A program made the translations under genes and the position numbers. The notes under the pieces were generated by a model. That model made no database searches and was not told where the DNA came from. It worked only from the letters and a program-made list of their open reading frames with translations. A DNA stretch of 10,097 nt from Pseudomonadota bacterium (GTDB taxonomy: Bacteria; Pseudomonadota; Alphaproteobacteria; Caulobacterales; Caulobacteraceae): positions 1 through 10,097 of the forward strand of contig JAEZHG010000190.1 of the NCBI GenBank assembly GCA_023436945.1, written 5' to 3'. Positions 1 to 10,097 of the stretch are shown here, piece by piece. Position 1 is the stretch's first letter. Every line of letters begins with the position of its first letter.

Positions 1-799
1 AGATCGCCCACCCGTGGTGAATAGCCGCCACGCCGCCCGTCAGGTTGGTCACGGTCACACGGCTGAAGCCTGCGTCCTCGATCATGCCCTTGAAGGTGTT
101 CTGGTCAGGGAAGCGACGGATGGATTCCACCAGATACTGGTAGCTGTCGCGATCCTTGGCGACCAGTTGGCCGATGCGCGGAATGGCGTGGAACGACCAT
201 GCGTCATAGGCCTTGCGCATAACCGACGTCGTCGGGCGCGAGAACTCCAGGCACATGAAGCGACCACCCGGTTTCAGCACGCGGCGCGCTTCCTTCAGTG
301 CCACCGAAATATCGGCCACGTTACGAATGCCGAAGCTGATCGAATAGGCGTCCACCGAGGCGTCCGGCAGCGGAAGGTTCATGGCGTCACCAACGCTCCA
401 GACCATCTCCGGTTCGCCGCCCTTTTGCACACCGGCAAGGATCATCTCGGCGTTGTAATCCAGCACAATGACCTTGGCGTCCTCGCCACCACGGCGCTCT
501 TGCGCCGCGCGGGCCATCTTAGAATAGCGGCGCGACATGTCACCGGTACCACCGGCCACGTCGAGGATCGTCTCGCCCGGACGCGCATTCAGCTTTGCCG
601 CCGCAATGTCTTTCCAGACGCGGTGCACGCCGACGCTCATCAGGTCGTTCATCACGTCGTAGCTGGAGGCGACAGAGTTGAACACACCGCGCACCATCTG
701 CACCTTCTCGCGCGCATCAACATCGCGGAAGCCGAAGGAGGAGGTCTTACCCGAGAGCTTGTCTTCAGGCTTTTGATTGGCCGTATCGGAGGAGGTCAT
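1..799 (-). CDS. ubiE: UbiE, demethylubiquinone/demethylmenaquinone C-methyltransferase (3' end cut by window)
   Basis: This SAM-dependent C-methyltransferase acts in ubiquinone (and, where present, menaquinone) synthesis, methylating the benzoquinol ring at the membrane surface. The 266 visible codons carry the family landmarks: FGF near residue 22, the first signature [16 protein letters not shown] at 47-62, SAM motif [10 protein letters not shown] at 79-87, SFGIRN at 155-160 and the second signature [15 protein letters not shown] at 173-187. The last visible residues, [10 protein letters not shown], match the usual C-terminus, so only a few codons and the stop lie outside the window. The ATG at 799 is chosen because an in-frame TAA lies four codons upstream and the N-terminal extension is short. 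No good Shine-Dalgarno precedes it; the upstream bases read CCTCCCCT. The gene is divergent from the pterin dehydratase gene across a 127-bp gap. The assignment is very secure. Confidence 0.96.
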
Positions 800-926
800 A
801 GGGGAGGTTTAGCGCCTGTCAGTCGGTTCGTCATCCGCCGATGCAGTCGAAGTTGCGTATCGTATTGGCGCATGCCGAAAAAGCAGGTTACGCCTAGGGG
901 TAATATAAAGTCCTAGGGAGTGGGAA
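800..926. promoter_or_regulatory. Divergent promoter region of ubiE and the pterin dehydratase unit, with two CCTAGG sites
   Basis: The 127-bp gap between two divergent starts must hold the promoters for both directions. The word CCTAGGGG at 893-900 recurs as CCTAGGGA at 912-919. Each contains the 6-bp palindrome CCTAGG, and the two copies are 19 bp apart, close to two helical turns. The spacer holds TAATAT (901-906), which could be a -10-like element, but I see no matching -35. The second copy runs into GGGAG (916-920), the likely Shine-Dalgarno for the ATG at 927, so a protein or RNA pairing there could affect translation. A regulatory role is inferred. Confidence 0.4.
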
Positions 927-1232
927 ATGACTGCTGTGCCGCCACAGATTTCCGTCGAAGACGCACTGGCGATGTTGCCGGAATGGCAAAAGGCCGATGA
1001 CAGCCGTCCGGCTATTTTCCGCTCCCTGCGCTTTGCCGATTTCAACGCGGCCTTCGGCTTTATGTCCCGCGTAGCGATTCAGGCCGAAAAGTCCGACCAC
1101 CATCCGGAATGGTCCAACGTCTGGAACAAGGTCGATATCGTCCTGACCACCCATGACGCAGGCGGTGTAACCCAGCGCGACATTGATCTGGCCCGCTTCA
1201 TCGATGCCGCCGCCGAAGGACAAACCCAATGA
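927..1232 (+). CDS. Pterin-4a-carbinolamine dehydratase (PCD/DCoH family)
   Basis: This small cytosolic enzyme dehydrates 4a-hydroxytetrahydrobiopterin (or the equivalent hydroxypterin) to the quinonoid dihydropterin, recycling the cofactor of aromatic amino acid hydroxylases. The 101-residue length is typical of the family. The active-site signature is intact: HHPEW at 58-62, followed by [11 protein letters not shown] at 67-77 with the third catalytic His at 76, then the C-terminal helix DIDLARFID at 85-93. The ATG at 927 has GGGAG (916-920) at suitable spacing. The stop overlaps the start of the next gene by ATGA, so the two are probably translated together. No aromatic amino acid hydroxylase is visible in this window. 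PCDs of this kind have also been tied to molybdopterin or other pterin metabolism, so the physiological substrate is uncertain although the family is not. Confidence 0.93.
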
Positions 1233-2011
1233 GCGGGCGGGTCAGCGGCAAGAAAGTTCTGATTACCGGCGCGGCTGGTGGTCTGGGCGAGGCCATGGCC
1301 CGCATGATGGCAAGGGAAGGGGCGACAGTCGCCCTGACCGACATCGACAGGGCAAAGGTGCAGGCGCTGGCCGACAGCATCAACGACGAGCGCGCGGGCG
1401 CGGCCTTTGCCTATGCTCACGACGTGACGCTGGAAGATGACTGGGTGCGTGTGGTCGCCAATGCGGCAGACGACATGGGCGGCATATCGGTGCTGGTCAA
1501 CAATGCCGGTATCGGCGGCCAGTTGCTGTTTGCAGAGCAGGATACAATGGAGAACTGGCGCAAGGTTCAGGCGGTGAACCTTGAATCGGTCATGCTGGGC
1601 TGCAAACACACCCTGCCGCATCTCAAGTCCGAGCCCTTGGCCTCCATCATCAATATCTCGTCGATTGCGGGTCTCGCCGCCGCGCCCGGCATGGGGGCCT
1701 ATAATGCGACCAAGGCGGCGGTCTGGCTCTATACCAAGACCGTCGCGCTGGAATGTGCCAAGGCCGGCGGCACGGTTCGCGCCAACTCGGTCCATCCGGT
1801 CTTTATCAAGACCCCGATCCTTGATCCCTTCATCGCAATGGCGGGCGGTCAGGCCGATCTGGCCCACGAGAAACTGGCACGCGGTATCCCGCTTAAACGC
1901 ATCGGAGAGCCGGATGATGTGGCCTATTGTGTGCTCTATCTGGCCTCTGACGAGAGCAAGTTCGTTACCGGCTCCGAGTTCAAGATCGACGGCGGCATGA
2001 CCGCCCAATAA
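1229..2011 (+). CDS. Classical short-chain dehydrogenase/reductase, probably NAD-dependent
   Basis: This is a 260-residue classical SDR with a full Rossmann fold. The cofactor loop TGAAGGLG lies at 13-20, and Asp38 at the end of the second strand favours NAD(H) over NADP(H). NNAG is at 91-94 and the structural Asn is 117. The catalytic triad is Ser145, Tyr158 and Lys162 within NISSIAG and YNATK. The C-terminus has the usual [12 protein letters not shown]. The overall pattern resembles 3-beta/17-beta-hydroxysteroid and cyclopentanol dehydrogenase-like SDRs, but these families are too alike for the substrate to be named. The start overlaps the stop of the pterin dehydratase by 4 bp and has GAAGGA (1215-1220) 8 bp upstream, so the pair forms one transcript. 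A pteridine-reductase-like role is possible from the neighbour, but the NAD-type Asp38 argues against it. Confidence 0.92.
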
Positions 2012-2031
2012 CGGACTTATCTCAGCAGCTT

Positions 2032-2065
2032 GGGCGGCTTTCGATCATCAGGGTTGAGGCCGCCC
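2032..2065 (+). terminator. Hairpin downstream of the SDR gene, possible weak terminator
   Basis: GGGCGGC (2032-2038) pairs perfectly with GCCGCCC (2059-2065), and three further inner pairs including wobbles are possible. It lies 21 bp after the SDR stop and before the tRNA gene, where a terminator or processing site would be expected. There is no T-run after it (CTACCTTG follows), so it is at best a weak or Rho-assisted terminator. Confidence 0.3.
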
Positions 2066-2107
2066 CTACCTTGCTGTAAGCACCGCCTTCGGCCTCACGC
2101 CGACCAA

Positions 2108-2184
2108 GCACCCGTAGCTCAGCTGGATAGAGCGTTGCCCTCCGAAGGCAAAGGCCACAGGTTCGAATCCTGTCGGGTGCGCCA
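2108..2184 (+). tRNA. tRNA-Arg (anticodon CCG)
   Basis: A complete 77-nt cloverleaf is visible. The acceptor stem GCACCCG (2108-2114) pairs with CGGGTGC (2174-2180), followed by discriminator G and an encoded CCA at 2182-2184. The D-arm contains AGCTCAGCTGGATAGAGC. The anticodon stem TTGCC/GGCAA closes the loop CTCCGAA, giving anticodon CCG, which reads the CGG arginine codon. The T-arm ACAGG (2157-2161) / CCTGT (2169-2173) encloses TTCGAAT. It is co-directional with the SDR gene upstream and the arabinose-donor operon downstream. tRNA 3' ends are common integration sites for mobile DNA. Confidence 0.97.
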
Positions 2185-2339
2185 TTTTCTGAAAATCTGG
2201 ATGTTGAGCCTGTTAAGCGGGCGGTGGGTTTGCGCGTCTAGGCTAAATATCGCGCCATCACCCTTGCTGTTAAGCATATGGCATTGTTCAGTTGTCATTA
2301 GGTGTGACGGATTTTTGAACTTGGGTGGGGCAAGGTTCA
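2185..2339 (+). promoter_or_regulatory. Leader/promoter region of the arabinose-donor operon with a repeated CTGTTAAGC word
   Basis: This 155-bp gap separates the tRNA from the operon and should hold the operon promoter. The 9-mer CTGTTAAGC occurs twice, at 2210-2218 and 2267-2275, 57 bp apart. A related TTGCTGTAAGCA lies before the tRNA at 2071-2082, one base shorter than TTGCTGTTAAGCA at 2264-2276. TTGTCA at 2292-2297 is a plausible -35, but the expected -10 position reads only TTGAAC, so I do not assign a firm promoter. AAGG at 2332-2335 is the probable ribosome binding site for the ATG at 2340. Confidence 0.35.
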
Positions 2340-3212
2340 ATGACTGCCTATTTCAGAGCCATGCGCCCGCATCAGTGGCTCAAGAACGTATTGATCTTTG
2401 CGGCCCTGCTGGCTTCGCACGATTTTAGTGCGGACCATCTGGTCCACGCCGCACTGGCCTTTGTCGGTTTCTGCCTGATCGCGTCTGCGACCTATATCGC
2501 CAACGATATCATGGACGTGAAAGCAGACCGCGATCACCCGCGCAAATGCCGTCGTCCGTTCGCATCCGGCCAGATTTCAGTGCCCAAGGGGCTGGTGTTT
2601 GCAGGTGTCCTGTTCGCGCTGGGCATACTGGTAGCGCTGGCAGTGAATGTGAACTTCATGCTGATCACCCTGCTCTATGCGGTGATCTCGCTGTCCTATT
2701 CCAAGTGGCTGAAGAAGATATTCGCCCTCGATATCACCGTGCTGGCGGCCCTCTATACGATCCGCATTCTGGCCGGAGCGGTGGCAACGAATATCGAGGT
2801 CTCGGTATGGCTTCTGGCCTTCTCGATCTTCTTCTTCCTGATGCTGGCGGCCATCAAGCGTCAGGCCGAACTGATCGATATTGCCGCGGTCGGAAAGATG
2901 TCGCCTAACGGGCGCGGTTACCACGTCGATGATTTGCCTGTGATCGGCAGTATCTCCGTGGCATCGGGCGTGGTGTCGGTGCTGGTCATCGTCATGTACG
3001 CCGACTCCGAGCCTGTGCGCCTGATCTATAGCCGCCCCGAGATGCTGTGGGGTGTGGCTCCGGTCCTGATGTTCTGGATATTCAGAATGGCCGTAATCAC
3101 AAATCGCGGCATGATGCATGACGATCCCTTGGTCTTCGCGGCCAAGGACAAGGTCAGCTATGCCAGCTTCTTTGTGATGCTGGTCCTGATCCTTCTCGGG
3201 ACATATCTGTAA
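2340..3212 (+). CDS. UbiA-family polyprenyl-phosphate phosphoribosyltransferase (DPPR synthase type)
   Basis: This 290-residue polytopic enzyme is predicted to join PRPP to polyprenyl phosphate, giving polyprenyl-phosphoryl-5-phosphoribose, the first step toward the arabinofuranose donor. It starts with MRPHQWLKNVLIFAALL, the usual N-terminus of this UbiA subgroup. The first Asp-rich motif NDIMDVKADRDHP lies at 55-67 with KxxRP at 69-73. YSKWLKK is at 120-126, followed by DITVLAALYTIRILAGA (131-147). The C-terminal DDPLVFAAKDKVS (261-273) is characteristic of the Rv3806c-like group rather than of quinone-forming UbiA. About eight or nine membrane helices are visible. The ATG at 2340 is preferred over an in-frame GTG at 2325 because AAGG precedes it and the core begins immediately. 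The stop overlaps the next start (TAATG). Rhizobial NoeC, used to arabinosylate Nod factors, is a related protein. Ubiquinone or heme prenyltransferase roles are unlikely. Confidence 0.9.
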   Translation: MTAYFRAMRPHQWLKNVLIFAALLASHDFSADHLVHAALAFVGFCLIASATYIANDIMDVKADRDHPRKCRRPFASGQISVPKGLVFAGVLFALGILVALAVNVNFMLITLLYAVISLSYSKWLKKIFALDITVLAALYTIRILAGAVATNIEVSVWLLAFSIFFFLMLAAIKRQAELIDIAAVGKMSPNGRGYHVDDLPVIGSISVASGVVSVLVIVMYADSEPVRLIYSRPEMLWGVAPVLMFWIFRMAVITNRGMMHDDPLVFAAKDKVSYASFFVMLVLILLGTYL

Positions 3213-3637
3213 TGAATATCCGGTTGGCCCTGCTTTACGTGGCTTTCGCGGTTGTGGCGACGCTGGTGAACATCGGCGTGCAGCGGCTGTCGATTGCTGC
3301 CTATGAGGGGCCGTATTTTCTGGCCATCGCCATCTTTGCGGGCACGCTTGCTGGGCTGGTGGTGAAGTATGTGCTCGACAAGAAGTGGATATTCCACGAC
3401 GTCGGTACCAGCGTCTCCAAGGACAGCAGACAGTTCCTGCTCTATGCCCTGATGGGTGTGATCACTACGGCCATCTTCTGGGGGGCAGAAGCTGTGTCGT
3501 GGATGGTGTGGCAGACCCATCTGGCGCGCGAGATCGGGGCCGTGATGGGTTTGGCAGTAGGCTATATCGTCAAATACCAGCTTGATCGGCGCTTTGTGTT
3601 TGGCGCGGGCACACGTCAGGTGGGCGAACGCGCATGA
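3212..3637 (+). CDS. GtrA-family small membrane protein
   Basis: This 141-residue integral membrane protein has four predicted helices, roughly residues 5-25, 36-56, 75-99 and 106-126. It shows the internal two-fold repeat of GtrA proteins: KYVLDKKWIF at 52-61 and KYQLDRRFVF at 121-130, each just after an even-numbered helix. GtrA proteins act with polyprenyl-phosphate sugars, either moving the lipid-linked sugar across the membrane or scaffolding the transferase. The mycobacterial GtrA protein Rv3789 sits next to dprE1/dprE2 and is needed for normal arabinosylation. Here the gene lies between the DPPR synthase and dprE1, overlapping one by 1 bp and the other by 4 bp. That position argues strongly for a role in delivering polyprenyl-phosphoarabinose to the periplasmic side. 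Whether it is a flippase or a recruitment factor cannot be read from the sequence. Confidence 0.9.
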   Translation: MNIRLALLYVAFAVVATLVNIGVQRLSIAAYEGPYFLAIAIFAGTLAGLVVKYVLDKKWIFHDVGTSVSKDSRQFLLYALMGVITTAIFWGAEAVSWMVWQTHLAREIGAVMGLAVGYIVKYQLDRRFVFGAGTRQVGERA

Positions 3638-4956
3638 TACTGACGGGCTGGGGGCGTTATACCAAGGCAGACTGCAAGGTCTCGCGGGCGCGTAGTCCGC
3701 AGGACGTGCAGGCTGCTGTCGCCCGAGGCCCGCTGATCGCGCGCGGCAATGGCCGTAGCTATGGCGACAGTGCGCATTTGCCGGAACAGACGCTGGATAT
3801 GCGGGCGATGAACCGCATGCTGGCGTTTGATGCCGAGGCGGGACTGCTGGTGGCCGAGGCCGGGGTGGTGCTGGGGGATGTGGTCGAGACCTTCCTGCCG
3901 CGTGGCTGGTTCCCATGGGTCACGCCCGGAACGCGCTTTGTCACCCTTGGCGGAATGGTGGCGTCGGATGTCCATGGCAAGAACCACCACAAGGAAGGCT
4001 CCATCTCGGAATATCTCGAATGGATTGAGGTTCTGACGGCAGGCGGTGAGGTGGCTCGCTGTAGCCGCACAGAGAATAGCCAGCTCTTTAGCGACACCAT
4101 TGGCGGTATGGGTCTTACCGGCGTCATACTGACCGTCGCCATGCGTCTGCGCCCCGTAGAGACGGGCTGGATACACCAGCAGAAGTTCCTGACCGCCAAC
4201 CTTTCCAGCACGCTTGATCTGCTGTCGCTGCTGGATAGCGCGACCTATAGCGTCGCCTGGATCGATTGCCTGTCCAAGGGGCGCGCGCTGGGGCGTTCGG
4301 TGGTGATGATGGGCGAGCATGCGCCGCTGGACAGGTTAGGCCAGAGCCAGAAGTCAGACCGGTATGTCTGCGGCCCCCGCAGGATCAAACGCGTGCCCTT
4401 TGCGCTGCCGTTCAACCTGTTCAATCCGCTGTTCTCGCGGGTCTTCAACAGCCTTTACTACTGGAAGAATTTCTTCAGTCCGAAGAACGCCCTCATCGAC
4501 TGGCAGACCTATTTCTATCCGCTCGATGGCGTTGAGGGATGGAACAAAATCTACGGGCCAAAGGGCTTTGTGCAGTTCCAGTGCGTGCTGCCTGTCGAGA
4601 CGTCCCGCAAGGGGCTGTCCGAACTGCTGCAGGCCGTCTCGGCGAGCGGACAGGCCAGCTATCTTTGCGTCCTGAAGAAAATGGGACCGGAGGGGATCGG
4701 TTCGATATCTTTCGGGCGCGAGGGCTATACCCTCGCCATGGATTTTCCGGTCACCAAGGCCATGCCTGACCTGATCGATAGGCTGCATCACATCGCCCTG
4801 TCGCATGGCGGGCGGTTCTATCTGGCCAAGGATGCACGGATGGGCGGCGAGATACTGTCGCAGTCAGACAGCCGCATCGAGGCCTTCAAGGCGCGTCGCC
4901 AACCCAACAGTTTCAAAACGTTCAAATCCAGCCAATCGGAGCGGGTAAACCTATGA
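3634..4956 (+). CDS. dprE1: DprE1-type FAD oxidase, polyprenylphosphoryl-beta-D-ribose 2'-oxidase
   Basis: This is a 440-residue FAD enzyme of the vanillyl-alcohol-oxidase type, close to the 461 residues of mycobacterial DprE1. It oxidises the 2'-hydroxyl of polyprenylphosphoryl-ribose to the keto intermediate, the first half of the ribose-to-arabinose epimerisation. FAD-binding motifs are RGNGRSYGDSA (37-47) and VTPGTRFVTLGG (96-107), followed by DVHGKNHHKEGS (112-123), the DprE1 signature. The substrate domain holds WNKIYGPKGFVQFQ (303-316), AMDFPV (368-373) and FYLAKD (395-400). Lys399 matches the essential Lys418 of the M. tuberculosis enzyme. Ala368 occupies the position of Cys387, the residue attacked by benzothiazinones. 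The ATG at 3634 overlaps the GtrA stop by ATGA, with AGGTGGG upstream. It is likely cytosolic or peripheral to the inner membrane, paired with DprE2 encoded next. An unrelated sugar-lactone oxidase is the alternative, but motif order and neighbours make that unlikely. Confidence 0.94.
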   Translation: MILTGWGRYTKADCKVSRARSPQDVQAAVARGPLIARGNGRSYGDSAHLPEQTLDMRAMNRMLAFDAEAGLLVAEAGVVLGDVVETFLPRGWFPWVTPGTRFVTLGGMVASDVHGKNHHKEGSISEYLEWIEVLTAGGEVARCSRTENSQLFSDTIGGMGLTGVILTVAMRLRPVETGWIHQQKFLTANLSSTLDLLSLLDSATYSVAWIDCLSKGRALGRSVVMMGEHAPLDRLGQSQKSDRYVCGPRRIKRVPFALPFNLFNPLFSRVFNSLYYWKNFFSPKNALIDWQTYFYPLDGVEGWNKIYGPKGFVQFQCVLPVETSRKGLSELLQAVSASGQASYLCVLKKMGPEGIGSISFGREGYTLAMDFPVTKAMPDLIDRLHHIALSHGGRFYLAKDARMGGEILSQSDSRIEAFKARRQPNSFKTFKSSQSERVNL

Positions 4957-5690
4957 GTGGTAAGAGTGTTCTCATCATCGGCGGCCGCTCGGATATGGGG
5001 CTGGCCATTGCGCATCGCTTTGCCAAGGCGGGCTATGCCGTGCAGTTGGCCGCACGTAATGCCGCCAGCCTGACCGAGGTTAAGTCCGATCTGGAAATCC
5101 GCCATCAGGTTGCTGTCAGCCTGCATGAGCTGAACATTCTACAGTCCGACCGTTTCGAGAGCTTCATCGGCAGCCTTCCTGTGCTGCCCGATGTAGCGGT
5201 CAGTGTGGTGGGCTTGATGGGCGACCAGAGCCAGTCCGAAAAGGACGCTCAAGCCGCTACGGTAGTGCTGCGTTCAAACTTCGAGGGACCTGCGCTGCTG
5301 TCGGGGTTGATCGTCAACCACTTCATTGCACGCGGCCATGGCACGCTTGTGGGTGTCAGCTCGGTTGCGGGCGATCGAGGCCGCGCGAGCAACTATGTCT
5401 ATGGCTCGTCGAAGGCCGGCTATACCGCCTTCCTGTCGGGGCTTCGCAACCGTGTGAACGGCACGGGCGTGAATGTCCTGACCGTCAAGCCGGGCTTTGT
5501 CGCGACGCGTATGACCGAGAATCTGGACCTGCCCAGAGCCTTGACGGCCTCGACCGAGCATGTGGCCGAAGACGTCTTCAAGGCCGTGGGTAAAGGCCGC
5601 CGGATCATCTACACCAAATGGATCTGGCGCTATGTGATGCTGATCATCAAACACATCCCAGAATTCGTGTTTGTCAGGCTGAAGCTATGA
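4953..5690 (+). CDS. dprE2: DprE2-type short-chain reductase, keto-arabinose intermediate reductase
   Basis: This 245-residue SDR is predicted to reduce polyprenylphosphoryl-2-keto-pentofuranose to polyprenylphosphoryl-D-arabinofuranose, completing epimerisation with DprE1. The nucleotide loop is the unusual GGRSDMG (10-16) typical of DprE2, in place of the standard TGxxxGIG. The structural Asn is 109 and the triad is Ser137, Tyr150 and Lys154 within SSVAGDRGRASNYVYGSSK. The stretch SSVAG...RxSNxVYGSxKAG closely matches mycobacterial DprE2. The tail from about residue 219 to the end is strongly hydrophobic and basic (WIWRYVMLIIKHIPEF), as in the family, and probably anchors the enzyme at the inner membrane near its lipid substrate. 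The ATG overlaps the dprE1 stop (ATGA), with GGAG at 4938-4941. Length agrees with the roughly 254-residue mycobacterial protein. Confidence 0.93.
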   Translation: MSGKSVLIIGGRSDMGLAIAHRFAKAGYAVQLAARNAASLTEVKSDLEIRHQVAVSLHELNILQSDRFESFIGSLPVLPDVAVSVVGLMGDQSQSEKDAQAATVVLRSNFEGPALLSGLIVNHFIARGHGTLVGVSSVAGDRGRASNYVYGSSKAGYTAFLSGLRNRVNGTGVNVLTVKPGFVATRMTENLDLPRALTASTEHVAEDVFKAVGKGRRIIYTKWIWRYVMLIIKHIPEFVFVRLKL

Positions 5691-6916
5691 CCCAGCCAGG
5701 CGCGCCGTCGAAGGTGTTTTCCAGCACCCTGATCATGATGGTGATCATCTATCTGGTGCTGGCTTTGGTCGCCTATAGCGCGGTCAGCTTCCAGTCTCCC
5801 GCGACGCTGGGGGCCGAGAAGTTTCTCACAGACTATGACGCCTTCTATGTCGCAGGTCTGATAGCGGGCGAGGGCAATGCGGGGCAGGGGTATTACGAGG
5901 CCTATCTGCGGCCCTATCAGGCAGCCTATGCGGATGGTGAGTCCTTCATGCCGTGGACCTATCCGCCGGTTGTGACCCTGATCATGCAGGGGTTTGCGTC
6001 AATCCCGATCGGCGTGTCCTATGTGATCTATATGGCGATCGGGATGATCGGTTGCTTCTGGCTTCTGCGTAAGACGGCCGGGGCGTATCTGCCAGGGATG
6101 CTGATCCTGATGTTTCCGGTCATCGCCCTGAACGTCAAAACCGGCCAGAACGGATTTCATACAGCGGCATTGGTGGGGCTGTTTTTGCTGTCCTATATGA
6201 AGGGGCTTAAAGTTGCGGGCGTGCCGCTTGGTCTGATGATCATCAAGCCGCACCTGGCGGTTGGCCTGTCTCTTCTGACCCTGCTGGGATGGCGGGTTTG
6301 GACCGCTGTCATAGCGGCAGTGGTTGTGGCGGTCGCGCTGGCACTACCGACCCTCGTCTATGGTAGCGGCATCTGGTCCGATTTCCTGAATGCCGTGCGC
6401 GAGTCTTCAGCCTTTCTGGAGAAGGGAGCCTATCCGCTGGAGCGGATGACCTCCGTCTATGCCTTCCTGAAAAGCTTTCATGTCATCAGCGCGGTGGCCA
6501 TCGCGATCCATAGTCTTGTCGCCCTTTGTGCCTTGGGGGCGGTGGTTTGGGCTTGGGCCAAAAAACTCCCGTTCAAACAGCTGGCTGCGGTGGTCTGTGC
6601 GGCCTCAGTCTTGGTCAGCCCCTATAACTATGACTATGATCTGATGATCCTTGCGGTCGGACTGTCATTTATCATCGACGATCTGGTGGTCCGGACGCGC
6701 GGACTGGAGCGGTTGCTGGGCGGTCTGGCGCTGTGGTTTGCCACCAGTATGGGGACCATCGCCCAGATCGCGGACATGCCGCGTGAAGGCTATCTGCACC
6801 TGAACTATTCCATCGCCGCACCGATCCTGATCGGTCTGATGATCTGGTCGGGAAAAGTGCTCGCACGTCCTGTGCCAGAGAAAGCTTGGCCGGAAAATAA
6901 AGTCATCGAACAGTAA
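5687..6916 (+). CDS. GT87 (DUF2029)-type polytopic GT-C glycosyltransferase, candidate arabinofuranosyltransferase
   Basis: This 409-residue protein has roughly ten membrane helices and the layout of GT-C glycosyltransferases that use polyprenyl-phosphate sugars. The first periplasmic loop carries DYDAFYVAG (49-57), where GT87 enzymes have their catalytic Asp. Other family marks are TYPPVV (91-96), NVKTGQNG (149-156), IIKPHL (185-190) and SPYNYDYDL (311-319). The family includes mycobacterial PimE (polyprenyl-phosphomannose user) and, to my knowledge, AftC (polyprenyl-phosphoarabinose user). Encoded last in an operon that makes the arabinose donor, the likely donor is polyprenylphosphoryl-D-arabinofuranose; the acceptor cannot be seen. 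The ATG at 5687 overlaps the dprE2 stop (ATGA) and begins a short tail before the first helix. An upstream in-frame start at 5618 would overlap dprE2 by over 70 bp and is rejected. A periplasmic active site is expected. Confidence 0.85.
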   Translation: MTQPGAPSKVFSSTLIMMVIIYLVLALVAYSAVSFQSPATLGAEKFLTDYDAFYVAGLIAGEGNAGQGYYEAYLRPYQAAYADGESFMPWTYPPVVTLIMQGFASIPIGVSYVIYMAIGMIGCFWLLRKTAGAYLPGMLILMFPVIALNVKTGQNGFHTAALVGLFLLSYMKGLKVAGVPLGLMIIKPHLAVGLSLLTLLGWRVWTAVIAAVVVAVALALPTLVYGSGIWSDFLNAVRESSAFLEKGAYPLERMTSVYAFLKSFHVISAVAIAIHSLVALCALGAVVWAWAKKLPFKQLAAVVCAASVLVSPYNYDYDLMILAVGLSFIIDDLVVRTRGLERLLGGLALWFATSMGTIAQIADMPREGYLHLNYSIAAPILIGLMIWSGKVLARPVPEKAWPENKVIEQ

Positions 6917-6928
6917 TCGTCGACTGTT

Positions 6929-6962
6929 GGGCGCTGTGGCAAAGCTTCAGCGCCCGATTTTT
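6929..6962 (+). terminator. Intrinsic terminator of the arabinose-donor operon
   Basis: GGGCGCTG (6929-6936) pairs perfectly with CAGCGCCC (6948-6955) around an 11-nt loop, followed by GATTTTT (6956-6962). It begins 12 bp after the GT87 stop. An 8-bp GC-rich stem plus T-run is a good Rho-independent terminator and marks the operon's end. Confidence 0.85.
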
Positions 6963-7016
6963 GAATGAAACTGCGATATGCCAAGCGTCGCTGTATTTAA
7001 GTCACTCATTTAGAAA

Positions 7017-7097
7017 CCGAATACCGGCTCGGCTTACGCCTCCGTAAGTCTACGGAAAGCGCCTTGCGTACACCTCCTGAGGAAGTTGTATGCGTAG
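7017..7097 (+). other. Hairpin-rich non-coding segment, possible structured RNA or leader
   Basis: The gap from 6963 to 7292 has no convincing long gene and is AT-richer than its neighbours. Within it three potential stems lie almost end to end. CCGA (7017-7020) pairs with TCGG (7029-7032). CTTACG (7033-7038) pairs with CGTAAG (7043-7048) around CCTC. CTACG (7050-7054) pairs with CGTAG (7093-7097), enclosing CGTACA (7067-7072) with TGTATG (7087-7092, one G-T). TCCGTA (7041-7046) can instead pair with TACGGA (7051-7056), which excludes the second and third stems. The inner loop shows CACCTCCT (7071-7078), identical to the anti-Shine-Dalgarno core of 16S rRNA. No promoter or terminator is clear, so an RNA product is only a candidate. 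Confidence 0.25.
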
Positions 7098-7119
7098 TAT
7101 CCCCTATAAAGAGCAATAG
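7090..7119 (+). other. Possible tiny ORF with its own Shine-Dalgarno (leader-peptide candidate)
   Basis: An ATG at 7090 opens a nine-codon frame (MRSIPYKEQ, stop TAG at 7117-7119) preceded at good distance by GAGGAAG (7079-7085). The Shine-Dalgarno and start lie inside the large stem-loop described at 7050-7097, so folding could hide them. Such short frames arise by chance and the codons show no attenuator-like run, so I give this low weight. Confidence 0.12.
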
Positions 7120-7204
7120 TTGTAGAAAATGCGGAACTAAATGAGCAGTTTACGCGATGTGTAGGTGCATTCCCATTTTCTAGCCTTGATTAGGCCAAGG
7201 GTGG

Positions 7205-7277
7205 CTTGTGCCTACAAGTCGAACAGTCGGGGTCTGGTGTGGGGGCTGCGACGTTGGTGCCCACCCGACACGTGTTG
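7205..7277 (+). promoter_or_regulatory. Candidate operator region of the TetR-family gene (two palindromes)
   Basis: Two inverted repeats precede the regulator. CTTGT-GCCT-ACAAG at 7205-7218 has perfect 5-bp arms. CGACACGTGTTG at 7266-7277 is a 12-bp palindrome with one mismatch, centred on CACGTG and ending 15 bp before the ATG at 7293. TetR-family proteins usually bind such palindromes at their own promoters, so autoregulation is plausible. Which of the two would be the operator is not decidable here. Confidence 0.3.
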
Positions 7278-7292
7278 CAGTTTGGTTTGAGT

Positions 7293-7916
7293 ATGCAGAA
7301 CGAAACCAAGGTCAAAGCCTCGCCCGACGGTCGTCACCTTCGCAGCGAGCGGAGCCGGTCGGTCATCGCCAAGGCCATGTTGGAATTGGTTCGTGAAACA
7401 GGTCAGATGCCGACGACCGATTCCGTTGCCGACCGTGCCGGAGTTTCGCGTCGTTCTGTGTTCCGTCACTATGCCGATGTCAGCGAACTTCTGAGCGCCG
7501 CCTACGAGCTTCAGCGCGAGGATGCCTTCACTCGCTATCCGCCGCGCGACCCTTCACAGTGGTCCGAAAGCGAGCGTGTTCAGGCCTTCACCGAGCGCGG
7601 CACCGCCCTTTATGAATATGTTTCGTCCGTGCGCCGCGCTGCGGTTCACATGTCGCGCGACTATCCGGTCCTGAATGACCTGATGCGTGATGATGACACC
7701 CTGCACCGCAGCCTGATTGCCAAGCTTTTTGACTCCTCGTTCGACAAGCTGAACGCGACCGACCGCATTACCTTCCTGAACACCTTGGTGGCGGCCAGCA
7801 GCTGGAGCGCGTGGGAGGCCATGCGTCACGAGCAGGGTCTGGATGTCGAGGCCGCGCGTGATGTGATCCGCACGACCTTCAACAGTGTTCTGGCCTACGC
7901 CAAGACCAAGGCCTAA
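7293..7916 (+). CDS. TetR/AcrR-family transcriptional regulator
   Basis: This 207-residue protein has the TetR architecture: an N-terminal helix (about 17-36) and a helix-turn-helix at 41-66 reading TTDSVADRAGVSRRSVFRHY, then an all-helical ligand and dimer domain without recognisable sequence marks. The arginine-rich recognition helix (SRRSVFRHY) is typical. The ATG at 7293 gives a normal short tail before the DNA-binding domain. A longer frame from a TTG at 7206 would add 29 residues of low-complexity sequence and is less likely, although no strong Shine-Dalgarno precedes 7293. The gene is convergent with the aldehyde and alcohol dehydrogenase pair. Control of those genes is possible by proximity only; the effector is unknown. 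Confidence 0.9.
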   Translation: MQNETKVKASPDGRHLRSERSRSVIAKAMLELVRETGQMPTTDSVADRAGVSRRSVFRHYADVSELLSAAYELQREDAFTRYPPRDPSQWSESERVQAFTERGTALYEYVSSVRRAAVHMSRDYPVLNDLMRDDDTLHRSLIAKLFDSSFDKLNATDRITFLNTLVAASSWSAWEAMRHEQGLDVEAARDVIRTTFNSVLAYAKTKA

Positions 7917-7932
7917 GGCCTGAAAAGCTGAA

Positions 7933-7955
7933 CGGCGGCGTGTGATACGCCGCCG
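7933..7955. terminator. Strong hairpin between convergent tetR and aldehyde dehydrogenase genes
   Basis: CGGCGGCGT (7933-7941) pairs perfectly with ACGCCGCCG (7947-7955) around the 5-nt loop GTGAT. It lies 16 bp after the regulator stop and 8 bp after the aldehyde dehydrogenase stop on the other strand. There is no T-run on the plus side. On the minus side the hairpin is followed by TTCAGCTTTTC, a weak U-tract. It probably serves both transcripts. Confidence 0.6.
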
Positions 7956-7963
7956 CCCAATCC

Positions 7964-9385
7964 TTACATCTTAAAGGCCAGATCGACGATCTGCTTGGCC
8001 CGCTTTCCATAGGGCGGGGCCATCAGGCGTGTGGTGTGCCAGCGCGGAGCCTTGAACACGGCGCGCGCGTGGCTCATTTCGGCAAAGCCATAGTGGCCGT
8101 GATAGGAGCCGCGACCGCTGGGGCCATTGCCGCCGAACGGCAACTGATCATTGGCAACGTGCAGCAGTGCGCCATTGACCGTCACACCACCCGAATGGGT
8201 GTGGTCCAGCACTTTCTCGACCTCGGCATTCTGTTGCGAGAAGACATAGAGCGCCAGCGGGCGGTCGCCATCGTACACATGGGCAATGGCCTGATCCAGA
8301 TCGGGCTTTGCAAACACAGGCAGCACAGGTCCGAAAATCTCTTCGCGCATCATGCGAAGGTTCTCCGGCGGATTGAGCACGACTGTGGGCGGGAATTTGC
8401 GTGTCGCGCGCACAGTATCGGCATCAAAGGCCGGCTGGATGATCTCGGCTCCGGCCTCGCGGGCCTCCTCGACCATGGATTCCAGGCGCGCGAAATGCTG
8501 TCCGGCGATGATGGTGGAATAGTCGGGGTTGTTGGCAAAGTCCGGATAGAAGGCTTCAACCTTGTCGGCGACGGCGCGGCCCAGTTTGCGGGCACTGTCG
8601 GCATCGCCAAGGGTGATGGCGTGATCGACCGCCACGCAGGTCTGGCCCGCATTGAGGAAACGGCCCCAGGCGATAGCGTGGGCGGCGTCCTCGACAGGAT
8701 AGCTGGCGCCGACGATGGCAGGGGACTTGCCACCCAGTTCCAGCGTGACCGGCACTAGGTTCTGGCCTGCGACCGCGGCCACGCTGCGGCCCACGCGGGT
8801 CGAGCCGGTAAAGAAGATGTGGTCGAAGGGCAGGGCGCTGAAGGCTTCGGCAAGATCGGGGCCGCCCTCGATGACCGCCACCTGATCCTCGGGGAAGGCC
8901 TCGTTCAAGAGGCGCTTCATAAGGGAATTGGTGTTGGGCGTCAGTTCCGACAGCTTCATCATGGCGCGGTTGCCCCCCGCCAGCGCCGTCGCCAGCACCA
9001 GCAGCGACAACTGCACCGGATAGTTCCACGGCGAGATGATGCCGACTACGCCCTTGGGGTCATGGCGCACGTATGAGCGACCCGGCTGGGCCAGCATAGG
9101 TGTAGGGACGCGTGTGGGCCTCATCCAGCGGCCAAGGTTCTTGCGCATGTCCTTGGTGCCGCGAAGCACGACAGACAGCTCCAGCAGGCGCGTTTCGATA
9201 TGGGCGCGGTGGCCAAAGTCTGCGGCCACCGCCTCGCACCATGCGTCCTGATGCTTGAGGCACAGTTCCTCGATCTTTTTCAGATCGGCGCGGCGCTTGT
9301 TGGCTGTACGGTTCGGTTCGGTCAGAAAGGCTTTGCGCTGGCGCTCCAGCAGCGGGTTCAGATCGGCGAGGGCAGTCTGGGTCAT
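7964..9385 (-). CDS. NAD(P)-dependent aldehyde dehydrogenase, coniferyl-aldehyde-dehydrogenase type
   Basis: This 473-residue ALDH oxidises an aldehyde to its acid. The catalytic set is intact: Asn121 in SPWNYP, GSTRVG at 194-199, Glu216 in ELGGKSP, nucleophile Cys250 in AGQTC, EEIFGPVLPV from 348, and PFGGNGPSGRG near the C-terminus. The compact length, the N-terminal RQRKAF and the late FGGxGxSGxGxYHGxxGF pattern place it with class-3-like and coniferyl-aldehyde dehydrogenases. Residues just after the cysteine read VAVDH, where relatives usually have VAPDY, which may alter the substrate tunnel. It starts 8 bp after the stop of the GMC alcohol dehydrogenase, so the two are one operon that could oxidise an alcohol through aldehyde to acid. 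The true substrate (aromatic, terpenoid or fatty) is not visible. The ATG at 9385 has only a weak ribosome binding site, consistent with coupling. Confidence 0.92.
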   Translation of the reverse strand: MTQTALADLNPLLERQRKAFLTEPNRTANKRRADLKKIEELCLKHQDAWCEAVAADFGHRAHIETRLLELSVVLRGTKDMRKNLGRWMRPTRVPTPMLAQPGRSYVRHDPKGVVGIISPWNYPVQLSLLVLATALAGGNRAMMKLSELTPNTNSLMKRLLNEAFPEDQVAVIEGGPDLAEAFSALPFDHIFFTGSTRVGRSVAAVAGQNLVPVTLELGGKSPAIVGASYPVEDAAHAIAWGRFLNAGQTCVAVDHAITLGDADSARKLGRAVADKVEAFYPDFANNPDYSTIIAGQHFARLESMVEEAREAGAEIIQPAFDADTVRATRKFPPTVVLNPPENLRMMREEIFGPVLPVFAKPDLDQAIAHVYDGDRPLALYVFSQQNAEVEKVLDHTHSGGVTVNGALLHVANDQLPFGGNGPSGRGSYHGHYGFAEMSHARAVFKAPRWHTTRLMAPPYGKRAKQIVDLAFKM

Positions 9386-9393
9386 AGCTGGGC

Positions 9394-10097
9394 CTATCGG
9401 CTAAGGATTATATCGGCAGCGCGGGTGGCGATCATCATCGACGGCGCATTGGTATTGCCGCCGATCAGACGCGGCATGATCGAGGCATCGACCACGCGCA
9501 GTGACTGCACACCATGCACGCGCAGCTGGGAATCCACCACCGACAGTTCGTCGTGGCCCATCTTGCAGGTGCCGACGGGGTGATAGAGCGTCTCGGCGCG
9601 GTTGCGCAGGTCATCCAGCAGTTCGCTGCGGGTCTGATAGGCCGGATTGGGCCAGATCTCTTCCTTGCGGTCGAAATCAAAGGCGCTGTGGGTCAGCACC
9701 TTGCGGGCCAGTTCCATACCGTCGAGCATGACCTCGACATCCTGCGGAGCCGACAGATATTTCGGATCGATATGCGGATGGACCTCGGGGTTGTTCGAGG
9801 TGATGCGCAGCTCGCCGCGGCTTTCCGGATAGAGGTGGCAGACGTGCAGCGACACACCGTGTCCGAAGGGCAGGCGGGCACCGTGCGGCGCGACCTTGGC
9901 CGGAATGAAGGCGAACTGCAGGTCCGGCAGATCTCCGGCGAGGGAGGACTTCAGGAAGCCCGCGCCCTGAACCGGATTGGTGCTCAAGAGACCGTGCTTG
10001 CCGGTCAGGAAGTTGAGGGTGCTTTGGGCCCATGCGCCCACCGTCGGGCCCGAAATGCCCAGCGAGGTTGTCGATCGGGTGGTGATCTGGCCCAGTA
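9394..10097 (-). CDS. GMC-family flavin alcohol dehydrogenase, C-terminal part (5' end outside window)
   Basis: The 233 visible residues are the C-terminal part of a glucose-methanol-choline oxidoreductase, an FAD enzyme that oxidises alcohols to aldehydes. The catalytic HPVGTCKMG with its active-site His is followed by the GMC C-terminal signature LRVVDASIMPRLIGGNTNAPSMMIATRAAD, split here as VVDASIMP and GGNTNAP (second catalytic residue Asn). Upstream, RGELRITSNNPEVHPHIDPKYL is the usual substrate-domain segment. The frame stays open to the right edge, so the N-terminal FAD-binding half lies beyond it. It resembles choline-dehydrogenase and AlkJ-like alcohol dehydrogenases; choline itself is not indicated. 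The aldehyde dehydrogenase encoded 8 bp downstream would take its product. Confidence 0.93.
   Translation of the reverse strand, partial: LGQITTRSTTSLGISGPTVGAWAQSTLNFLTGKHGLLSTNPVQGAGFLKSSLAGDLPDLQFAFIPAKVAPHGARLPFGHGVSLHVCHLYPESRGELRITSNNPEVHPHIDPKYLSAPQDVEVMLDGMELARKVLTHSAFDFDRKEEIWPNPAYQTRSELLDDLRNRAETLYHPVGTCKMGHDELSVVDSQLRVHGVQSLRVVDASIMPRLIGGNTNAPSMMIATRAADIILSR

Follow-up and report, generated by a model that had tools for sequence, protein, structure and literature searches.

D-arabinofuranose (D-Araf) is best known from mycobacteria, where its synthesis and transfer are a drug target. In Rhizobium sp. IRBG74, the noeCNHOP operon serves the arabinosylation of Nod factors: passages of PMC5080398 report that deletion of noeP abolishes this modification and that deletion of noeN reduces it, and they propose NoeN as the missing phosphatase. 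Here we describe an operon of five overlapping genes in a 10,097-nucleotide stretch of a Caulobacteraceae genome (contig JAEZHG010000190.1, positions 1 to 10,097 of the forward strand), which as a whole we call the window. Its first four genes match noeC, noeN, noeH and noeO in order, and its fifth encodes a polytopic glycosyltransferase of family GT87. We think it probable that this operon makes and uses polyprenyl-phosphate-D-arabinofuranose, with the GT87 protein transferring D-Araf to a periplasmic or outer-membrane acceptor. The donor pathway, its occurrence in Gram-negative bacteria and the four-gene order (in Nod-factor operons) are already known; a GT87 in the role proposed here, as a D-Araf transferase, was not found in searches of the open-licence PubMed Central (PMC) literature.

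Results

The original prediction of a D-Araf donor operon is well supported, chiefly by the genetically tested noeCNHOP operon, whose first four genes are those of the window in the same order, at 47, 47, 50 and 54% identity in IRBG74 (L129; GtrA pairs with the second gene product, NoeN, DprE1 with NoeH and DprE2 with NoeO; the record is NC_022536, named Agrobacterium pusense plasmid IRBL74_p, and noe names were assigned by gene order). The same arrangement is present in S. alkalisoli (L130) and Microvirga (L034, L036). The operons of IRBG74 and S. alkalisoli lie beside nod genes, whereas that of the window does not. In both systems the fifth gene encodes a polytopic membrane protein as the transferase, but NoeP has no BLASTP similarity to the window GT87 and no Pfam match; a phmmer search with NoeP matched only L129, L130, L034 and L036 among the loci compared, and the predicted fold of the NoeP relative from L034 had a mean predicted local distance difference test score (pLDDT) of 40, which made it unusable. 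As a separate observation, NoeN (L129:8582-9004) belongs to the GtrA family rather than being a phosphatase, by its annotation, its NCBIfam score (147.6 bits vs. a cut-off of 50) and its identity to the window GtrA. The features of the operon are as follows.

2340..3212, plus strand: UbiA gene of the PPPRS/DPPR synthase type without HAD domain (290 amino acids; PF01040, 96.9 bits; an in-frame GTG lies at 2325)
3212..3637, plus strand: GtrA-family small membrane protein (141 amino acids; PF04138, 44.2 bits)
3634..4956, plus strand: DprE1-type flavin adenine dinucleotide (FAD) oxidase (440 amino acids; FAD_binding_4, 80 bits)
4953..5690, plus strand: DprE2-type SDR reductase (245 amino acids; adh_short, 101 bits; YGSSK motif at residue 150)
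5687..6916, plus strand: GT87 polytopic glycosyltransferase, proposed D-arabinofuranosyltransferase (409 amino acids; PF09594, 83.9 bits)
6926..6962, plus strand: intrinsic terminator, a hairpin with a T run, ending the operon (fold z -5.7)
2108..2184, plus strand: tRNA-Arg (CCG), the upstream neighbour, outside the operon

Open frames, domain matches, start/stop overlaps (TAATG at 3212; ATGA at 3634, 4953 and 5687) and the hairpin fold all bear out the predicted run of five overlapping genes closed by a terminator. The hairpin directly follows the GT87 stop and folds at -27.7 kcal/mol, against -13.45 for shuffled sequences (standard deviation 2.5); a simple terminator scan missed it, probably because of its long loop. 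The start of GT87 had to be corrected, being at 5687 and not at the in-frame ATG at 5618.

GtrA scores over the cut-offs of both PF04138 and NF037976, and is presumed to help a lipid-linked sugar cross the membrane. DprE1 matches mycobacterial DprE1 in the PDB along its whole length (residues 3-439, E 9e-72) with the motif residues kept. It reaches 374 bits against NCBIfam NF053785 over the full model length, below the cut-off of 500, and DprE2 likewise reaches 187 bits against NF053786 over the full model length, below the cut-off of 250; these cut-offs may suit actinobacterial proteins. Against NF005489, DprE2 scores 336 bits, over the cut-off of 267. We also note that DprE1 residue 368 (window 4735-4737) is an alanine, invariant in 19 aligned sequences, where mycobacterial DprE1 has a cysteine that we take to be Cys387, the target of benzothiazinones.

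The UbiA protein scores 375 bits against NF006088 (cut-off 351), matches decaprenyl-phosphate phosphoribosyltransferase (PDB 8j8j) at E 2e-29, and has both the NDxxDxxxD motif (as ANDIMDVKADR) and the loop R/E motif (as KRQAEL) of the PPPRS type; it falls below the cut-offs of the mycobacterial-type models NF008976-8. Replacement of the equivalent residues in a Citrobacter enzyme mattered at N and D, and activity was kept when R and E were replaced, in the part of PMC11127046 concerned. The NF006088 match covers model positions 191-480 of 482, and its late start indicates that relatives carry an N-terminal HAD domain. Among the best 120 of 2754 UbiA matches, the N-terminus is long in 93 that carry the DxDx[TVSA] motif and in 15 that lack it (some of which only start late), five have a partial N-terminus, six are short (the window protein among them, and some probably fragments) and one lacks the anchor motif. 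The phosphatase domain usual in the family is absent from the window protein, and the stretch from the tRNA end at 2184 to the UbiA start at 2340 leaves no room for it.

The idea of a minimal five-gene route did not hold as stated, since removal of the 5'-phosphate is needed, UbiA lacks the usual HAD domain, and the 10 window frames scanned with Pfam yielded no phosphatase. Some UbiA relatives, including ones named Erythrobacter and Novosphingobium, have a decayed HAD domain; in NoeC of IRBG74 none was recognised and the nucleophile motif is absent, so that a phosphatase from elsewhere apparently can serve, and one encoded outside the window may do so here. In one operon (L137), where the HAD domain of UbiA is degenerate, a PAP2-family gene (L137:11212-12468) overlaps the end of GT87. 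We rejected PAP2 as a regular substitute for HAD, because the relative L147 and also L136 have equally weak HAD scores and no PAP2, and because no relative of the L137 PAP2 occurs in the other fetched loci (L095 being the same place).

The missing HAD domain, together with DprE1 and DprE2 scores under the curated cut-offs, could mean that the lipid sugar is not arabinofuranose at all, either because the 5'-phosphate is retained or because DprE1 and DprE2 act on some other polyprenyl-phosphate pentose. We give this very little credence: the Nod factors of IRBG74 are arabinosylated despite its NoeC (in the passages of PMC5080398 cited above), and, according to sections of PMC11127046, a HAD-UbiA fusion of this type makes polyprenyl-phosphate-ribofuranose from 5-phosphoribosyl-1-pyrophosphate (PRPP), and a Citrobacter fusion mutated at the HAD nucleophile still yields some dephosphorylated product and ribofuranose (Ribf) side chains.

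To place the operon among its relatives, we kept the best 80 DprE1 loci from named genomes out of at least 585 confirmed matches. UbiA, GtrA, DprE1 and DprE2 lie close together on the same strand in 57 of these 80, which is not chance, while a GT87 gene adjoins just five; the four-gene part of the predicted order therefore recurs, and its fifth member mostly does not. Such a pattern is what one would see if the operon only made donor for transferases encoded elsewhere, with the sugar going to O antigen, pilin or exopolysaccharide and GT87 playing a minor part. Ten proteins encoded downstream of cassettes were scanned, and six were polytopic by hydropathy without a Pfam match over the cut-off, as suits that explanation; polysaccharide genes lie near some cassettes, as it would also have it. 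Against this, the GT87 start in the window overlaps the DprE2 stop and the terminator comes directly after GT87, and we consider a donor-only operon decidedly improbable.

The link between GT87 and the donor genes is seen more clearly across whole genomes. We counted matches at E <= 1e-40 for both proteins in two orders: Sphingomonadales, to which Erythrobacter sp. WG belongs (396 genomes), and Rhodobacterales, which include Paenirhodobacter enshiensis (292 genomes). Sphingomonadales have DprE1 in seven genomes, GT87 in eight and both in seven (hypergeometric p=2.8e-14); Rhodobacterales have DprE1 in 107, GT87 in 10 and both in nine (p=6.6e-4; both values uncorrected for kinship). Five of the genomes with both were first reached through DprE1 (G001, G004, G005, G006, G543), as was one without GT87 (G553); with these six left out, DprE1 is still present in 4/5 and 7/8 GT87 genomes (p=5e-9 and 0.004). 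Rhodobacterales DprE1 matches fall into a close group of 49 genomes (at least 45% identity) and a distant group of 58, and the close type occurs in 6 of the 10 GT87 genomes there (1.7 expected, p=0.002). Where distant-type DprE1 accompanies GT87 (G592, G679, G771), a PPPRS-type UbiA adjoins DprE1. Weaker GT87 matches behave differently, with DprE1 in 0/84 genomes in Sphingomonadales and in 4/9 (E 1e-15 to 1e-40) vs. 3.3 expected in Rhodobacterales.

This association is mostly one of unlinked genes. GT87 and DprE1 are adjacent in only 4 of the 16 shared genomes (G001, G153, G287, G006), and in the other 12 GT87 lies at least 105 kb away or on another contig. Blastomonas aquatica has a split pathway, HAD-UbiA, DprE1 and DprE2 standing at one locus (L059) and GtrA beside GT87 on another contig (L081). 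Perfect co-occurrence we rejected: it holds for 7/7 Sphingomonadales genomes at E < 1e-70, but G254 breaks it at 1e-40, and three DprE1 genomes (G474, G530, G537) have no GT87 match. DprE1 without this GT87 is in fact common, being found in 98 of the 107 Rhodobacterales DprE1 genomes, and when another 20 genomes were reached by way of their DprE1 loci, only three (G554, G551, G543) had GT87 at E <= 1e-40, so that the dependence runs one way.

A GT87 tree of 68 rows points in the same direction. One clade of 32 rows (support of 100 in the Shimodaira-Hasegawa-like approximate likelihood ratio test, SH-aLRT) has 29 rows from DprE1 genomes, as against 6/36 rows outside it; a motif, SPYxYDYD, is present in 27/32 clade rows and 0/36 others. 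Twelve of the clade rows are the window itself or genomes picked through DprE1, and 17 of the remaining 20 come from DprE1 genomes. Overlapping loci had doubled three genes (one in the clade, from G007, and two outside, from G667), and one 41-residue row was dropped; without the repeats the counts are 28/31 in the clade and 6/34 outside. The three clade rows from genomes without DprE1 belong to G254 (twice) and G841, in which neither DprE1 nor a PPPRS-type UbiA was found; these are either true exceptions or incomplete genomes.

The assignment to GT87 is secure (PF09594, gathering score 25), and the predicted structure (pLDDT 93.4) has a GT-C fold. In the model a helix begins at D49 (open reading frame numbering), at the tip of the first juxtamembrane helix, and this column is invariant in 88 aligned sequences. 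Sequence profiles gave no relevant match in the PDB; the closest fold is that of PimE (9dm5, 15% identity), a mannosyltransferase that we take to be a GT87 family member. This weighs against a D-Araf transferase. If the first four genes made the D-Araf donor and GT87 merely shared the operon while using another polyprenyl-phosphate sugar, such as mannose, one would expect just such a fold, since PimE uses polyprenyl-phosphate-mannose, and the clade genes of the two genomes lacking DprE1 and PPPRS would also fit. The genomic company of the window GT87 is nonetheless DprE1, which is present in 16/18 GT87 genomes and mostly unlinked; no synthase of a mannosyl lipid was seen among the scanned window frames; and SPYxYDYD sits roughly at PimE W319, H321 and H322, a correspondence by spacing only. 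We therefore regard transfer of another sugar as unlikely, and still favour D-Araf, for which the predicted transfer draws support from co-occurrence with DprE1 and meets opposition from the fold. Mycobacterial AftC (Rv2673) may lie in or near GT87, and if so it would be a precedent for a D-Araf-using member.

The acceptor was rightly left unassigned in the original prediction; the 12 loci compared with the window share no neighbour family with it beyond pathway genes and common SDRs, and among the loci examined an acceptor is evident only beside nod genes. Our first guess would be a glycolipid, given that PimE has a membrane glycolipid as its acceptor and that the window GT87 is small and has no extra domain.

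Several neighbourhoods are recorded here for their own sake. In Salipiger profundus plasmid pTPRO6 (L128:199-18113), the neighbours of the four-gene cassette include two large calcium-binding proteins and a protein with an M10-type metallopeptidase domain, which might conceivably serve as acceptors. Genes of the fatty-acid hydroxylase family lie near or beside lone clade GT87 genes (L133:8213-8992, L135:8509-9504). At L136 (4412-7196), the genes after GT87 encode a protein that matches no Pfam family, a putative acyl-carrier-like small protein and a ketoacyl synthase, an arrangement reminiscent of IRBG74, where genes for an acyl carrier protein and a ketoacyl synthase adjoin the noe operon. 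On a Rhizobium sophoriradicis plasmid (L219:12251-13375), two genes for hypothetical proteins and an opposite-strand gene annotated as GT87 lie after the cassette. Nine stretches of viral contigs matched a search pattern, none with a DprE1 relative.

The genes flanking the window operon have no apparent connection to the pathway: ubiE (minus strand), a pterin dehydratase, an SDR and the tRNA-Arg(CCG) upstream; a TetR-like regulator (Pfam score below the cut-off), an aldehyde dehydrogenase and a GMC oxidoreductase downstream. Among 21 alphaproteobacterial genomes compared, the best matches of the window UbiE are in two metagenome-assembled genomes labelled Hyphomonadaceae (both 57% identity, 318 and 287 bits), followed by Lutimaribacter (57%, 273 bits), with Sphingomonadales at 48-51%, which identifies the host as an alphaproteobacterium. 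A genomic island inserted at the tRNA was considered and found no support: the operon and its flanking genes have similar G+C contents at third codon positions (GC3; 0.72-0.76 and 0.68-0.80, respectively), and no tRNA stretch longer than 11 bases is repeated in the window.

Discussion

Read from gene content, the favoured pathway would begin with UbiA placing 5-phosphoribose from PRPP on polyprenyl phosphate, after which a phosphatase encoded elsewhere would clear the 5'-phosphate. DprE1, by oxidizing C2' of polyprenyl-phosphate-ribofuranose, and DprE2 would together invert this centre to give the arabinofuranosyl lipid, and GtrA would aid its passage to the periplasmic side. There the PimE-like GT87 would move D-Araf onto a periplasmic or outer-membrane acceptor not encoded nearby, probably by inversion, as in PimE, giving an alpha link.

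More tentatively, and with the odds somewhat against it, we suggest that the SPYxYDYD clade may be a new family of PimE-like D-arabinofuranosyltransferases spread through Alphaproteobacteria that, as PimE does, add a single sugar to a membrane glycolipid, its hosts possessing an outer-membrane glycolipid with D-Araf. If so, lone clade GT87 genes, often far from donor genes, would mark arabinosylation systems overlooked by gene-cluster searches. Linking one GT87 clade to the D-Araf donor provides a marker gene and an enzyme assignment that can be tested, and may extend the known range of sugars moved by GT87 enzymes. In at least one alphaproteobacterial order homologues of DprE1 are common, as the Rhodobacterales counts above attest.

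Compared with the mycobacterial decaprenylphosphoryl-arabinose (DPA) pathway (Rv3806c, Rv3807c, DprE1, DprE2, Rv3789), the window has a GtrA protein, a type that Rv3789 is said to resemble by Kelly et al. in a passage of PMC11127046, as well as homologues of DprE1, DprE2 and DPPR synthase; it differs in that no phosphatase was found, that the operon has no Emb or Aft gene, and that the transferase is a PimE-like GT87. DprE1/E2 versions for Araf have already been reported in that paper, in whose main text a word search finds neither GT87 nor Alphaproteobacteria. The three-component pentofuranose systems of Kelly et al. (2024) resemble the window in that a PPPRS makes the lipid donor and a GT-C enzyme finishes the work outside the cytoplasm. 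Those systems combine a fused HAD domain, a MATE exporter and a GT136 enzyme, whereas the window has a UbiA without HAD, a GtrA protein in the place of MATE (no MATE domain was found among the 10 frames scanned) and, as its finishing enzyme, GT87.

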